Shown here: in pieces, positions 1 through 6,903 of the stretch | How the letters are laid out: each line of letters starts with the position of its first letter | Position numbering within the stretch: the first letter of the stretch is position 1 | Source: Methanobacteriota archaeon | GTDB taxonomy: Archaea; Thermoplasmatota; E2; DHVEG-1 | Direction of reading: 5' to 3' | Length of the DNA stretch: 32,711 bases | Assembly (NCBI GenBank): GCA_026394435.1 | Contig: JAPKYG010000037.1 | Span: forward strand, 1-32,711 | Made by a program: the position numbers and the translations under genes | The notes under the pieces: generated by a model | Databases searched by the model: none | What the model was told of the DNA's origin: nothing | The model's input: the letters and a program-made list of their open reading frames with translations, nothing else

Positions 1-1584
1 TTACCATATGTTGTATACGCGGACGATAGCCTCTATACCTGTTCCCAGGATTCCAATGAAAAAATAAAGGAGAAAATCAAAGAACTTGGACTGAATCGCA
101 TTGTAATTGCATCATGTACACCGCGAACCCATGAGCCATTGTTCCAGGATACACTCCGTGAGGGAGGGCTCAATCCTCATCTTTTCGAGATGGCTAATAT
201 TCGTGATCAGAATTCATGGGTGCATAAAAACAATCCACAGAGTTCGACAGAAAAAGCTATTGATGCGGTGCGGATGGCGGTTGCAAAAGCATCGGATTTG
301 TCCCCTATCCACCATTCGAAAATCCCTGTTGTTAACCATGCACTTATTATTGGTGGCGGGATCGCAGGGATGCATGCAGCATTGTCCATTGCAGACCAAG
401 GATATGAAACAACCCTTGTGGAAAAAGAACCAATACTCGGTGGTCATCTAAGAGACATTTATCTTGGCATCAATGGGGAGAAACCACAAGAGCATCTGAA
501 CGAGACAATTGCACGAGTAAAGAGCCATTCGAAAATCCACGTGTTCACCGATACGACGGTAACGAACATTTCTGGGTACGTCGGGAATTTTAAGTCCCAG
601 TTGATAACAAAAGAGAAAAAGACACCTACCGAAGTTGAACATGGAGTAACTGTGGTAGCAACCGGCGGTCTTCCCTACAAACCTGTTGAATATCAGTACG
701 AAAAAAGCGATGATATCATCACCCAGACCGAGTTTGAAAAAGACCTCTATGAGGAAAAACCGTATCTTAAAAATCTAAAGGAAGTCGCGATGATTCAATG
801 TGTCGGCTCACGAAACGATGATCATCCGTATTGCAGTCGGGTGTGCTGCTCGCAGGCGCTGAAAAACGCACTTCGCTTCAAAGAGCTGAATCCGGATGCA
901 GCTGTCTATGTGTTGTACCGCGATATTCGGACCTACGGGTTCCGTGAAGACCTGCTGTATCAAAAGGCTCGGAAGAACGGGATTTTATTTATCCGATATA
1001 ACGATGATGATGAGCCAAAAGTGACGCTTGAGGAGGGAAAACCTTTAGTGAAAACAAAGGAACATATCCTCAATAGAGAGCTGCATTTGCATCCCGATAA
1101 ACTCGTGCTTAGCACCGGGATCATCCCACAGGATAACACCACCCTTGCACAGCAATTGAAGGTACCATTAAACGAGGACTTGTTCTACTCGGAAGCTCAT
1201 GTGAAGTTACGTCCGATTGATTTCTCTGCTGACGGGATTTTCCTCTGCGGCCTTGCGCATTCACCACGATTCATCGAAGAATCTATTCTTCAAGCAAAGG
1301 CAGCTGGCGCCCATGCAGCAACAATTCTTTCGAAGAAGTATCTTGAGACCAAAGGTAACATCGCTCGAGTGATATCCCGGAATTGTGCTGGGTGCCAACT
1401 CTGCGTGGAGATGTGTCCGTATGACGCAATCACATTTGATGAAGAGAAAAAAGTGGTGGTTATTAATGAAATTCTGTGTCAGGGGTGTGGTGCGTGTTGT
1501 GTTGTATGCCCAAGTGGTGTTTCGCAGCAGAATACGTTTACGAAACGTCAGATTGTTTCTATGATTGATGCGTGTCTGGAGTAA
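1..1584 (+). CDS. hdrA: HdrA-like heterodisulfide reductase subunit A, 5'-truncated by the window edge
   Basis: Frame 1 is open from base 1 (LPYVVYADDSLYTCSQDSNEK...), upstream of the listed ORF start at 139. GGGIAGMHAAL FAD-binding motif, CVGSR...YCSRVCC, two C-terminal CxxCxxCxxxCP motifs. Closely resembles the C-terminal half of the 3853..6903 protein. Confidence 0.9.
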   Translation, partial: LPYVVYADDSLYTCSQDSNEKIKEKIKELGLNRIVIASCTPRTHEPLFQDTLREGGLNPHLFEMANIRDQNSWVHKNNPQSSTEKAIDAVRMAVAKASDLSPIHHSKIPVVNHALIIGGGIAGMHAALSIADQGYETTLVEKEPILGGHLRDIYLGINGEKPQEHLNETIARVKSHSKIHVFTDTTVTNISGYVGNFKSQLITKEKKTPTEVEHGVTVVATGGLPYKPVEYQYEKSDDIITQTEFEKDLYEEKPYLKNLKEVAMIQCVGSRNDDHPYCSRVCCSQALKNALRFKELNPDAAVYVLYRDIRTYGFREDLLYQKARKNGILFIRYNDDDEPKVTLEEGKPLVKTKEHILNRELHLHPDKLVLSTGIIPQDNTTLAQQLKVPLNEDLFYSEAHVKLRPIDFSADGIFLCGLAHSPRFIEESILQAKAAGAHAATILSKKYLETKGNIARVISRNCAGCQLCVEMCPYDAITFDEEKKVVVINEILCQGCGACCVVCPSGVSQQNTFTKRQIVSMIDACLE

Positions 1585-1590
1585 GAGAAT

Positions 1591-2040
1591 ATGAGTGAAG
1601 AAAAAAAGGACCATAAGAAGGAAGACTTCGAACCAAAGATCGTCGGGTTCCTCTGCAACTGGTGTAGTTACGCGGGTGCTGACCTTGCTGGGACGAGCCG
1701 TATCCAGTATCCGCCGAACGTCAGGATTATTCGAGTGATGTGCTCCGGATCTGTTGATTCTATGTACATTCTGCGTGCATTGCTCGAGGGTGCTGATGGC
1801 GTGTTTGTCGGTGGCTGTCACCCGGGTGATTGTCATTACATTGATGGGAATTACAAGGCGCGACGACGTATGGTGTTACTCGAAAATATCCTCGGTACAT
1901 TAGGCTTAGAGAAAGAGCGAGTATGGCTGCGATGGATCTCTGCATCTGAAGGTCAGAAGTTTGCTGACACAATGAAAGAAATGACTGAGGCGGTGAGGAA
2001 ACTAGGACCCAGTCCAATCGCTAAACACTGGAATCTTTAA
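1591..2040 (+). CDS. mvhD: MvhD/FlpD-like methyl-viologen-reducing hydrogenase delta subunit
   Basis: [18 protein letters not shown]...CSGSVDS...[19 protein letters not shown] is characteristic of the MvhD family; directly follows hdrA. Confidence 0.92.
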
Positions 2041-2056: not shown

Positions 2057-3178
2057 ATGACGCACAAAGTAATCAAGGTCAAGGACAATGACGTAGTAGG
2101 ATCAACCAATGATTTCTTGAGAAATCTCCTTTCATCAGGGAAAATCCAGGCGTTATTGGTTCCGCAAAATACTCCATCGAAAAAAGTTGCATTTCCTGTG
2201 CTGATTTCTGATCCGAAGAAGTTTCACGCTGATATTGTTGCCCCGATTCTTCCTGCGTCTACCGCTACAATTGTGTCGAAGATGACCAAGGTGCAGCCAC
2301 CATCAAAACCCATCGGGGTTGTCATGCGGTCCTGTCAGATCCGAGCCCTTATCGAACTGGTAAAGTTGAATCAAGCGAGCCTTACGAACATCGTGATCAT
2401 CGGAGTCGATTGCCCTGGTACGTTTCCTATAAACACGTATACCGAGTTCCCTGAAAAGAAAACACCAACGCAGTTCCTACTTGAAGCCTGGACGAAGAAA
2501 TCCGATGAAGCAGAAAAATATTTCCGCTCCGCCTGCCGTGTCTGCAAAGACCCGATTCCGACAAACGCAGATATTATTCTTGGATTCTATGGTGCCGATA
2601 TTGAAAAAGAAATTATAGTTGAGGCACACTCCGAGGTAGGAAAGAACATTCTGAAAGAATTACCCCTCGAGGATGAAGAAGAATGGAAAAGTCGGGAGAA
2701 AGCAGTCAAAGAACTCCGTGAAGAAAAGGCCAAGAAACGTGCGGTATTCCTCAAAGAAAAAGAGGGACTCAAAGGGATTGATAAGGTCTCTGAGTTTTTT
2801 GATAAATGCGTCAACTGTCATAACTGCCGGCAGGCATGTCCGATTTGTTACTGTAAAGAGTGTTTGTTTGACTCATCAGTGTTTGACGCGGAGGCGTACA
2901 AGTTCCTTCGCAGAGCAGAAATCAAAGGGTTGTTTAAAATGCCGAACGATGCGTTGTTATTCCAGCTCGGACGAATGAACCATATGATTCTTTCTTGTGT
3001 GGAGTGTGGGTTATGTGAACAGGCATGCCCCAATAATATTCCGCTCATGGATGTGTTTATCCCCGCTGCAGAGAACGCGCAGAAAGAATTCGACTATCAG
3101 CCCGGGAAGGATATCAAAGAGAAGATCCCGATGATTGTGTATCGGGAGGATGAGTTCTTGGAGGTAGGAGAAAAATAA
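2057..3178 (+). CDS. FrhB/FdhB-like F420 hydrogenase/dehydrogenase beta-type subunit with 4Fe-4S dicluster
   Basis: FrhB-like core (GVVMRSCQIRALIELVKLNQ...IIGVDCPGTFP) plus CVNCHNCRQACPICYCKEC and CVECGLCEQACP; GGAGG upstream. Confidence 0.8.
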   Translation: MTHKVIKVKDNDVVGSTNDFLRNLLSSGKIQALLVPQNTPSKKVAFPVLISDPKKFHADIVAPILPASTATIVSKMTKVQPPSKPIGVVMRSCQIRALIELVKLNQASLTNIVIIGVDCPGTFPINTYTEFPEKKTPTQFLLEAWTKKSDEAEKYFRSACRVCKDPIPTNADIILGFYGADIEKEIIVEAHSEVGKNILKELPLEDEEEWKSREKAVKELREEKAKKRAVFLKEKEGLKGIDKVSEFFDKCVNCHNCRQACPICYCKECLFDSSVFDAEAYKFLRRAEIKGLFKMPNDALLFQLGRMNHMILSCVECGLCEQACPNNIPLMDVFIPAAENAQKEFDYQPGKDIKEKIPMIVYREDEFLEVGEK

Positions 3179-3179
3179 T

Positions 3180-3845
3180 ATGGATGTCATTGATTCCCGC
3201 AAGGTTGACCCGAGTTTCAAGTTTCAGATAGCAAAAGAAGAGGGCGGCGAAGGTATTCTGAAATGTTTCGCGTGTGGTGCCTGTACCGCTCGTTGCCCTG
3301 AGATGGATGTCAAACCAGAGTGGAACGCGCGAGTCATCATCCGGAAAGCACTGCTTGGGTTGAAAGAAGAAGTGCTTACGAGCGAGTTTTTCTGGATCTG
3401 CAGCGCGCATTATCGTTGTTTGGAGAAATGCCCGCAGAAGGTGAATGTAAAAGAGGTAATGAATGCGGTGCGGGACGCCCGGCTTCTTGAGGAACAAACC
3501 GAGGACGTCACAGGGAAGAAGACGAAGAAATACCTTGATTTGGATTTCAAATACACAATTACGCAGAGCAAGTCTGGGAAAGACCTCTATGAGTGTTTCT
3601 CCTGCGGTACGTGTACAGCAGGATGTCCGGAGCGGGAGCTTGATTCGCTCTATTCACCACGCAAAGTGATCAAGAATGTGTTACTTGGGATGAAGGACCC
3701 TGTGTTCTGTAATAAGTTTGTTGAAATTTGTTCGTCTCATCATCGGTGTTTCACTCAATGCCCACAAGGGGTGGAGATCCCGAAGTTGATGAATGCGATT
3801 AAAAACATTGCAATGAAAGAAGGGTACAATCGAACAACAAAATAG
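3180..3845 (+). CDS. hdrC: Tandem-duplicated HdrC-like Fe-S protein (two HdrC modules in one chain)
   Basis: Module 1: CFACGACTARCP ... WICSAHYRCLEKCPQKVNVKEVMNAVRD. Module 2: CFSCGTCTAGCP ... EICSSHHRCFTQCPQGVEIPKLMNAIKN. Confidence 0.85.
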   Translation: MDVIDSRKVDPSFKFQIAKEEGGEGILKCFACGACTARCPEMDVKPEWNARVIIRKALLGLKEEVLTSEFFWICSAHYRCLEKCPQKVNVKEVMNAVRDARLLEEQTEDVTGKKTKKYLDLDFKYTITQSKSGKDLYECFSCGTCTAGCPERELDSLYSPRKVIKNVLLGMKDPVFCNKFVEICSSHHRCFTQCPQGVEIPKLMNAIKNIAMKEGYNRTTK

Positions 3846-3852
3846 AAGACCT

Positions 3853-6800
3853 ATGGTAAAAAAATCTGATACGATCGGAGCTGTTGCTGTTGTCGGCGGT
3901 GGCATCGCCGGAGTACAGGCAGCTCTCGATCTCGCTGACATGGGATACAAAGTCTATGTACTCGAGAAATCACCGACTATCGGCGGTGTCATGGCCCAGC
4001 TTGATAAGACATTCCCGACAAATGATTGTTCGATGTGCATTCTGTCCCCGAAGCTTGTCGATTGTGCTCGTCATCAAAACATTGAGATTCTTACGAACGC
4101 GGTGGTAGAAGGTATCGAAGGGAACCCAGGGAATTTTACTGTAAAGGTACTGAAAAAACCGCGATATATTGACCTAGAGAAATGTACCTCGTGCGGGAGC
4201 TGTGAGGCGGTCTGTCCTGTTTCTCAGCCGAATGCGTTTGAATATGGTCTTGTGAAACGCAAGGCTATCTACAAGCCGTTCCCGCAGGCGATCCCGAATG
4301 CGTATGTGATCGATAAGGAAGGCGATGGGAAGCATCGCGGTTGTGTCGATTGCATGCGGTGTGTCAAAGAGTGTAAGTCTGGTGCGATTAACCATGAGCA
4401 GAAAGCTGAGCAACTCAGCTTTCCAGTTGGCGCGGTGATTATCGCTGCTGGTTCTCCACCGTTTGACCCCGTGGTGAAACCCGAGTTCGGGTACAAAAAA
4501 TACAAGAATGTGTTGACGAGTGTCGAGTTCGAAAGAGTCTTATCAGCATCGGGGCCAACGCAGGGGAAGATCCTGCGACCGAGCGACCAGAAGCATCCGA
4601 CGAAGGTCGCCTGGGTGCATTGTGTCGGCTCCCGTGACGCCTCCGAGAACCACGAGTATTGGTCTGCGATGTGCAGTATGTATACCGCAAAGGAAGCAAT
4701 CATTGCTAAGGAGCATGCTTCCGATATTGAGCCGACGGTGTTCTACATCGATGTCCGTTCGTATGGCAAGGATTTTGATAAATACATTAATCGAGCAAAA
4801 AAAGACTACGGACTTCGCTATGTTCGCTCACGGATCTCTGAGATTACCGAAGACCCGAAAACAAGGGACCTTCTCATAAAATACGAGGATGACAAAGGAG
4901 ACTTCAAAGAAGAAACATATAATCTGGTTGTACTATCAGTTGGGTTGTGTGGCGCTGGTGAAAAACGCAACGAGTTGATGGACACCCTTGGGTTTGATGC
5001 CAATGAGTTCAAATATGTGCGTACGAGTGCGGATGATCCAGTGGTTATCAAACCAGGGATTTTTGTCGCAGGCTCTTTCCTGGAACCGCAGGCGATCCCT
5101 GAATCGGTGATGCAGGCATCTGCAGCAGCGGCAAACGCAGCTGCATTGTTGAAGGATTCACGGGGTACACTTGTGAAAGAAAAAAAGTACCCAGCGGAGA
5201 AGGATGTGTCTGCTGAGAAACCCCGTATTGGGGTGTTTCTCTGTCACTGTGGTATCAACATCGGTGGTTATGTGGATGTCCCTGCAGTGGCTGAATATGT
5301 AAAATCATTAGAGGATGTCGCCTTTGTCGAGGCAAACATTTACACCTGTTCTGAGGATACGCAGAAGAAGATTGTCGAGGCGATTAAGAAATACGATTTG
5401 AATCGTATCTTGGTTGCTGCGTGTACTCCTCGGACGCATGAGCCGTTGTTCCAGAAAAGCTTACGGGATGCGGGGTTGAATCCGTATTTGTTGGAGATGA
5501 CGAATATTCGAGAGCAGTGTTCCTGGGTTCATATGGATGAGCCAGCCAAAGCAACTGAGAAGGCAAAGCAGTTAATCGCAATGACAGTTGCGAAAACAAG
5601 GTTCCTGCAACCGATTCAAGAAGCTGAGATCCCAGTTGTACAGAAAGCATTGGTCATTGGTGGTGGGATCGCAGGTATGACTGCGGCGTTGTCTCTTGCT
5701 GATCAGGGATATGAGACTGTTTTGGTAGAAAAAGAACGCCAGCTTGGTGGGTACTTACATAAGGTGTACTATACCGTTGATGGTCTTGACATCCCACGAT
5801 TACTGAAGGAGATGACTGAGAAGGTTCAGAAACATCCTCTTATAAAAGTGCATACCGGCTCACAGGTGAAATCCTTAAAGGGGTATGTGGGAAGCTACGA
5901 ATCTGAGATTCAAACACCGACAGAGGTCGTACCCTTTTCTCATGGCGTGATCATTGTGACTGTTGGTGCTGACGAATACAAACCACACACGTATCATTAC
6001 GGGAAAGATCCCCGGGTGTTGACGCAATCAGAGCTGGAAAAAGACCTTAGTGAAAGCACAAAAGAAGATATCCATGATGGAGAGACGTTCGTGATGATCC
6101 AGTGCGTGGAGTCCCGTGATGAGAAACGGCCGTACTGTAGCAGGATTTGTTGCATGCAGGCGGTAAAAAACGCCCTGAAGATCAAGGAGTTGAACCCACG
6201 AGCTGAAGTATTTCTCTTGTATCGCGATTTAATGACATATGGGTTTAAAGAAAAATTCTATAAAGACGCAAGAGAAAAAGGTGTGATGTTCCTGCAGTAT
6301 GATCCTGAGAAAAAACCAGAGGTCGAGGTGAAGAACGGTCTTGTCGTGAAGATTCATGAACCAATGCTGGGGGAACTGTTAAAGATACCTACTGATCATC
6401 TTATTCTTTCGACCGGACTACAGCCGAATCCTGACAACTCAGTGATAGGCAAGCTACTGAAGGTTCCGGTGAACGACGACGGATTCTTCCTTGAGGCACA
6501 TGTGAAACTGCGACCTGTTGATTTTTCGACGCGTGGTGTGTTTGTCGCCGGGAACTGTCATGTGCCGAAGTTTATCAGTGAATCGATTTATCAGGCGCAG
6601 GCTGCTGCAGCACGTGCAGCAACGATTCTGTGTAAACCTACTTTGAAGGCAGAACCAAATGTGGCTTTTGTTGATGATGACCTCTGCAGCGGGTGCAGTA
6701 TTTGTATTTCGGTATGTCCGTATAACGCGATTGAGCGTGTCGAAGAAGAAATCAACGGTAAAAAAGTGATACATGCGAAGATCAACGAAGGGTTGTGTCA

Positions 6801-6903
6801 AGGCTGTGGGACTTGCGTGAGTGCCTGTCCGAGTAGTGCGATTCAGCAACGTGGGTTTAAGGATAAACAACTGCTTCCGATGATTGACGAGATAATTCGA
6901 TAA
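3853..6903 (+). CDS. hdrA: Double-module HdrA (HdrA-HdrA fusion, 1016 aa)
   Basis: Two FAD-binding motifs (VVGGGIAGVQAALDLADMGY and VIGGGIAGMTAALSLADQGY), an internal HdrA N-terminal-type domain (GVFLCHCGINIGGYVDV), an inserted ferredoxin domain in module 1 and a C-terminal 2x[4Fe-4S] ferredoxin in module 2. Confidence 0.9.
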   Translation: MVKKSDTIGAVAVVGGGIAGVQAALDLADMGYKVYVLEKSPTIGGVMAQLDKTFPTNDCSMCILSPKLVDCARHQNIEILTNAVVEGIEGNPGNFTVKVLKKPRYIDLEKCTSCGSCEAVCPVSQPNAFEYGLVKRKAIYKPFPQAIPNAYVIDKEGDGKHRGCVDCMRCVKECKSGAINHEQKAEQLSFPVGAVIIAAGSPPFDPVVKPEFGYKKYKNVLTSVEFERVLSASGPTQGKILRPSDQKHPTKVAWVHCVGSRDASENHEYWSAMCSMYTAKEAIIAKEHASDIEPTVFYIDVRSYGKDFDKYINRAKKDYGLRYVRSRISEITEDPKTRDLLIKYEDDKGDFKEETYNLVVLSVGLCGAGEKRNELMDTLGFDANEFKYVRTSADDPVVIKPGIFVAGSFLEPQAIPESVMQASAAAANAAALLKDSRGTLVKEKKYPAEKDVSAEKPRIGVFLCHCGINIGGYVDVPAVAEYVKSLEDVAFVEANIYTCSEDTQKKIVEAIKKYDLNRILVAACTPRTHEPLFQKSLRDAGLNPYLLEMTNIREQCSWVHMDEPAKATEKAKQLIAMTVAKTRFLQPIQEAEIPVVQKALVIGGGIAGMTAALSLADQGYETVLVEKERQLGGYLHKVYYTVDGLDIPRLLKEMTEKVQKHPLIKVHTGSQVKSLKGYVGSYESEIQTPTEVVPFSHGVIIVTVGADEYKPHTYHYGKDPRVLTQSELEKDLSESTKEDIHDGETFVMIQCVESRDEKRPYCSRICCMQAVKNALKIKELNPRAEVFLLYRDLMTYGFKEKFYKDAREKGVMFLQYDPEKKPEVEVKNGLVVKIHEPMLGELLKIPTDHLILSTGLQPNPDNSVIGKLLKVPVNDDGFFLEAHVKLRPVDFSTRGVFVAGNCHVPKFISESIYQAQAAAARAATILCKPTLKAEPNVAFVDDDLCSGCSICISVCPYNAIERVEEEINGKKVIHAKINEGLCQGCGTCVSACPSSAIQQRGFKDKQLLPMIDEIIR

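Follow-up and report, generated by a model that had tools for sequence, protein, structure and literature searches.

The HdrC subunit of HdrABC (TIGR03290; structures 5odc, 8rvu and 7bkb) has a helical dicluster ferredoxin fold with two complete CxxCxxCxxxCP motifs. Its direct gene partner is HdrB, the HdrA and MvhD genes lie alongside, and its host makes heterodisulfide (methanogenic). In the Elp-Hdr and Fdh-Hdr complexes, an FdhB/ElpB homologue and MvhD are found beside HdrA, and FdhB/ElpB feed HdrA through MvhD. Bifurcating enzymes of this type need their cluster potentials to be set so that electron short-circuits are stopped. The helical dicluster domain has homologues in FrdB/SdhB of complex II, which are membrane-linked, and in EtfD and other HdrC-HdrB-like reductases; the soluble part of EtfD is, according to the authors of its study, a homologue of HdrB and HdrC (PMC13083937). 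In FrdB/SdhB, motif II is without its second Cys and the cluster is a [3Fe-4S] cluster, the exit cluster to quinone. The EtfD family also alters cluster ligands near the Hdr-like site, but these changes sit in the CCG domain and the cubane clusters keep all their Cys. A CxxHxxC motif occurs in the ferredoxins Fdx and FdxE of M. tuberculosis, Fdx5 and Fdx8 of M. marinum and that of R. palustris HaA2 (4ID8), which are single-cluster alpha/beta proteins that serve P450s and have a fold not homologous to that of HdrC. The characterised members hold a [3Fe-4S] cluster, the His being a non-ligand (PMC6237146, PMC9868604). They were isolated in this form both aerobically and anaerobically, and their potentials are raised, with -31 mV as the lowest value (M. 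tuberculosis) and +230 mV as the highest (M. marinum Fdx5) (PMC6237146).

We analysed a stretch of 32,711 nucleotides from a Thermoplasmatota genome (contig JAPKYG010000037.1, positions 1 to 32,711; hereafter the window) that encodes a tandem HdrC. A preliminary description of this DNA had reported a canonical first cluster motif in each repeat, and replacement of the same Cys by His in both second motifs. Direct reading confirmed the two observations. The features of the gene are as follows.

3180..3845, + strand: tandem HdrC, 221 aa, two helical dicluster repeats (open reading frame, profile, PDB and AlphaFold2/Foldseek matches)
3264..3299, + strand: repeat 1 motif I, CFACGACTARCP, with C29, C32, C35 and C39 (direct reading, orthologue alignment)
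3300..3302, + strand: Glu41 codon GAG, directly after C39-P40 (alignment of His-type and Cys-type repeats)
3399..3434, + strand: repeat 1 motif II, CSAHYRCLEKCP, with C74, H77, C80 and C84 (direct reading, orthologue alignment)
3408..3410, + strand: His77 codon CAT (direct reading, codon comparison)
3594..3629, + strand: repeat 2 motif I, CFSCGTCTAGCP, with C139, C142, C145 and C149 (direct reading, orthologue alignment)
3630..3632, + strand: Glu151 codon GAG, directly after C149-P150 (alignment of His-type and Cys-type repeats)
3729..3764, + strand: repeat 2 motif II, CSSHHRCFTQCP, with C184, H187, C190 and C194 (direct reading, orthologue alignment)
3738..3740, + strand: His187 codon CAT (direct reading, codon comparison)

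Motif I is normal in both repeats, and motif II is CxxHxxCxxxCP in both, reading C74-S-A-H77-Y-R-C80-L-E-K-C84-P in repeat 1 and C184-S-S-H187-H-R-C190-F-T-Q-C194-P in repeat 2. The starts of motif II given earlier (3399 and 3729) were right, but the ends (3431 and 3761) were one codon short; the motifs end at 3434 and 3764. In the profile search the protein matched the TIGR03290 HdrC family in two stretches (E 1.2e-35), with a score of 122.6 bits that lies below the cut-off of 160. Its nearest PDB chains are HdrC subunits (8rvv_C, 8rvu_c and 5odc_C). An AlphaFold2 model made from 27 orthologues had a mean pLDDT of 87.8, and all the top seven structural matches of this model in Foldseek were HdrC chains. 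The tandem protein is homologous to HdrC, with the same helical dicluster fold and motif spacing, and is predicted to work like the HdrC wire. It differs from HdrC of HdrABC in being tandem, in having His for the second Cys of motif II in both repeats, in an extra Glu after motif I, and in not being encoded beside HdrB. As two defining features of HdrC, the full Cys set and the adjacency to HdrB, are absent, we consider it a new variant and not a plain HdrC. No description of a His-type HdrC was found in the literature searched, which was mostly without subscription papers.

The 27 distinct orthologues, gathered from relatives and with a DNA pattern, represent three or more Thermoplasmatota groups of family level. 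Each is tandem and carries His in both repeats, so that His77 and His187 are invariant in 54 of 54 repeats, as are the other ligand Cys and the Cys-Pro motifs. The His codons vary synonymously between CAT and CAC (22/5 at His77 and 21/6 at His187), and the positions beside the His also vary (A/S/D, Y/F/S and R/G/L/T). It is therefore the residue, and not the DNA, that is conserved. A change from Cys to His takes two base changes. Among Cys-type HdrC repeats of the same phylum, Cys was present at this position in 33 of the 33 compared. We looked for close homologues with Cys and found none among the tandem orthologues; Cys occurred only in a separate, HdrB-linked paralogue. The conservation supports the earlier proposal that the substitution is a selected one. 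A sequencing or assembly artefact was ruled out by the occurrence of 27 distinct orthologues in separate genomes.

The DNA pattern used (W-hydrophobic-CxxHxxCxxxCP) matched in 25 of 390 genomes of the phylum, every match being a tandem HdrC gene, and the reversed pattern, taken as a control, had no match in the same 390 genomes. This Thermoplasmatota-like operon was also seen in two records with other titles, L039 (Methanosarcinaceae CSMAG_2122) and L045 (Fibrobacterota CSMAG_2808). Beyond these two starting records, the pattern had no match in 295 and 121 genomes of their respective assigned phyla, and both contigs are probably misbinned.

Which of the two clusters has been altered was deduced from the PDB search, with the residue correspondences taken from alignment end points. 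C29/C39/C74/H77/C80/C84 fall on residues 148/158/204/207/210/214 of E. coli FrdB (1kf6_B), where the position aligned with H77 is Val207 and not His. In EtfD (9ojn_A), C74/H77/C80/C84 fall on 412/415/418/422. The [3Fe-4S] cluster of FrdB has C158, C204 and C210 as its ligands (PMC1459171), and EtfD C311, C412, C415 and C418 hold the cubane cluster D3, next to cluster D2 of the HdrB-like domain (PMC13083937). H77 thus lies on Cys415, a ligand of D3. From these correspondences we infer, with the ligands assigned by homology, that the altered cluster is that of motif II, the exit cluster that faces HdrB, and that the His replaces a ligand whose position is already vacant in complex II.

We then compared the 54 His-type repeats with the 33 Cys-type repeats column by column. 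Twenty-three columns are invariant in the His type, and just two of these hold a residue never found in the Cys type, namely H77/H187 and E41/E151. Glu41/151 is absent from all 33 Cys-type repeats, and the 15 nearest Cys-type relatives have Val there. Since homology makes C39 and C149 the remote ligands of the altered cluster, the His and Glu changes would both be located at one cluster. This co-change is one evolutionary co-occurrence, retained in two repeats. The arrangement has a counterpart in the crystal structure of M. tuberculosis FdxE, in which Cys10, Cys16 and Cys54 hold the [3Fe-4S] cluster and His13 of CxxHxxC, a non-ligand, is hydrogen-bonded to Glu56, the residue at Cys54+2 (PMC9868604). 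C74/H77/C80 together with the remote C39-P40, and their equivalents in repeat 2, reproduce the cysteine and histidine set of such proteins, and E41 sits at C39+2, which matches the place of Glu56. The His-Glu neighbourhood of FdxE is the strongest structural hint in our data, by analogy between proteins of different folds.

The neighbouring genes in the window are as follows.

1..1584, + strand: 3' part of an HdrA-type protein (orthologue of ~1081 aa), cut by the contig start (open reading frame, operon comparison)
1591..2040, + strand: MvhD (FlpD), 149 aa (open reading frame, homology)
2057..3178, + strand: FdhB/ElpB-like protein, 373 aa, with an FrhB_FdhB_C domain and a dicluster (open reading frame, homology)
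3853..6903, + strand: tandem HdrA, 1016 aa, two FAD/TrxR-like halves (open reading frame, profile search)

The operon begins on a different contig of this genome. In the loci read through, the order is HdrC(Cys), HdrB, HdrA and a third HdrA, followed by MvhD, the FdhB/ElpB-like gene, the tandem His-type HdrC and the tandem HdrA. One operon thus has an ordinary HdrC beside HdrB plus the His-type HdrC beside the FdhB-like protein and HdrA. In every locus read, the His-type gene has the FdhB-like gene before it and the tandem HdrA after it and is never beside HdrB; HdrB adjoins the nearest Cys-type HdrC in 12 of 12 further loci checked. Of the two halves of the tandem HdrA, the N half alone has kept the PTNDCSMCILSP (HA4-like) cysteines, as judged from a motif check on the L079 orthologue. 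The components of an Hdr-based bifurcating complex are present: HdrA with its FAD domain, MvhD and an electron input module. Unlike in Elp-Hdr and Fdh-Hdr, FdhA/ElpA is absent, and NuoEF-like or NfnB-like NAD(P)H modules lie within the HdrA genes. The hosts differ as well, as McrA was detected in 0 of 40 relatives (the positive controls were detected) and CofE in none of 12 genomes of the family. Neither heterodisulfide nor F420 is therefore a likely substrate. F420 had been considered as the natural partner of the FdhB-like subunit, a candidate that is weakened by the absence of CofE from the 12 family genomes.

The reading that we favour, with a probability of about 0.5, is a selected, retuned exit cluster of the [3Fe-4S] type with a His-Glu pair, in preference to a His-ligated [4Fe-4S] cluster. 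The motif II cluster would have lost its second Cys ligand before the duplication and would since have been held as a selected His-Glu pair in both repeats. C39/C74/C80 and C149/C184/C190 would each ligate a [3Fe-4S] cluster, H77-E41 and H187-E151 would be hydrogen-bonded over the empty fourth-iron corner, and the potential would be higher than with all-Cys [4Fe-4S] ligation; the clusters of motif I would remain normal [4Fe-4S]. The [3Fe-4S] state is favoured as this is what the characterised CxxHxxC ferredoxins hold and as the [3Fe-4S] site of FrdB is vacant at the same position. On the other hand, those CxxHxxC ferredoxins have a single cluster and a fold unlike the helical HdrC domain, and the host is presumably a strict anaerobe, in which a fourth iron is more easily kept; the Asp-ligated P. 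furiosus cluster cited in PMC6237146 offers a comparison. The strict invariance of His across repeats that are on average only ~43% identical could equally mean ligation, and the Glu could support a ligating imidazole. In the alternative that these points describe, His77 and His187 truly ligate the fourth iron of a [4Fe-4S] cluster, Glu41/151 holds the distal imidazole nitrogen, and the potential is moderately raised and possibly proton-coupled. The two-base change that was never lost again fits this alternative as well, and His-ligated [4Fe-4S] clusters occur in [NiFe] and [FeFe] hydrogenases, as cited in PMC6237146. Against it stands the non-ligating His of the characterised CxxHxxC ferredoxins introduced above. 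To our knowledge, no ferredoxin-type CxxHxxC cluster has been shown to be His-ligated, which also counts against it, and we regard ligation as a possible but less probable outcome.

That motif II holds a labile or site-differentiated [4Fe-4S]/[3Fe-4S] cluster, exchanging its fourth iron and acting as a sensor or switch and not as a wire, is decidedly unlikely. The Cys set is indeed incomplete in an otherwise intact dicluster, and the Asp-ligated cluster of P. furiosus ferredoxin interconverts between [4Fe-4S] and [3Fe-4S] likewise (cited in PMC6237146), but the tandem HdrC has no fused sensory domain or regulator and its gene is embedded in an electron-transfer operon. Least probable is a second cluster that is lost or vestigial, with His as a neutral remnant: just one ligand is missing per repeat, but the three remaining Cys, the His and the Cys-Pro motifs would hardly have stayed invariant in 54 of 54 repeats across at least three families.

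The preliminary description had also placed the fixation of His before the duplication. When 12 more Cys-type relatives were added and the His column was left out, R1 and R2 (repeats 1 and 2) formed one clade with support of 97/92, on ~96 columns. This fits a single gain of His (and Glu) before the duplication, and together with the 54/54 conservation it makes the proposed order the most likely one; the His change likely preceded the duplication, as judged from a tree with only ~96 columns behind it. An independent origin of the two His after the duplication bears on history alone and agrees with either type of cluster. With fewer taxa and the His column likewise left out, trees that joined either repeat to the Cys-type relatives were not rejected by AU tests (p 0.47 and 0.50), which leaves room for such convergence, but the R1+R2 clade of the enlarged tree and the Glu common to both repeats argue against it, and we consider it improbable.

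With the exit cluster retuned as a [3Fe-4S] site, electrons would move through the tandem protein, with the tandem HdrA on one side and the FdhB-like/MvhD arm on the other; all of these would belong to a large, NAD(P)H-linked Hdr-type complex that would probably bifurcate or confurcate electrons. A high-potential exit cluster without HdrB may trap or gate the electrons that leave HdrA, or may alternatively form a bridge between HdrA units, and the ordinary Cys-type HdrC of the same operon would serve HdrB. HdrB from the same operon might, however, still dock to the tandem HdrC. The data suggest that selection retuned the last cluster when the protein ceased to serve the enzyme that is normally its partner. 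More tentatively, the exit clusters may be imidazole-ligated or His-Glu gated (proton-coupled) and bridge HdrA units in place of two HdrB arms; if so, they would be the first clusters of the ferredoxin type tuned by His in a flavin-based bifurcating complex. The conserved, duplicated retuning of one cluster, tied to the loss of a partner and to a Glu, offers a natural and testable case of the rewiring of a bifurcating complex. It also points to a different potential window for those Hdr complexes of non-methanogenic Thermoplasmatota that have no heterodisulfide as substrate.

Some variation was observed around the conserved module. The third HdrA occurs in two forms (window 1-1584; L079 7112-13248; L084 5569-10107). 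Form A is a single protein of ~1500 aa; inside it lies an NfnB-like segment of the NAD(P)H-oxidoreductase type, which matches NfnI alpha in the PDB (E 2.4e-75). Form B is split, as HdrA/NuoE-NuoF-HdrA, with NuoE-NuoF-[2Fe-2S] modules replacing the NfnB-like segment. As close relatives differ in the form that they carry, this seems to be a single site at which NAD(P)H input modules are exchanged. The operon start that belongs to the window's genome was read on contig L095. In two genera, a distant pair takes the place of HdrC(Cys)-HdrB in the operon and the His-type module is kept; the HdrC of that distant pair carries a penicillinase-repressor (BlaI-like) winged-helix domain fused at its N-terminus (L092 3615-4427; L093 13980-14771). 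Outside family f1, two genomes have the His-type module next to genes for [NiFe]-hydrogenase-like small and large subunits and a second MvhD. These hydrogenase-linked loci are the following.

L080 492-2986 and the overlapping L046 10299-12793: hydrogenase-linked locus, family f19
L081 3-2424: hydrogenase-linked locus, family f54
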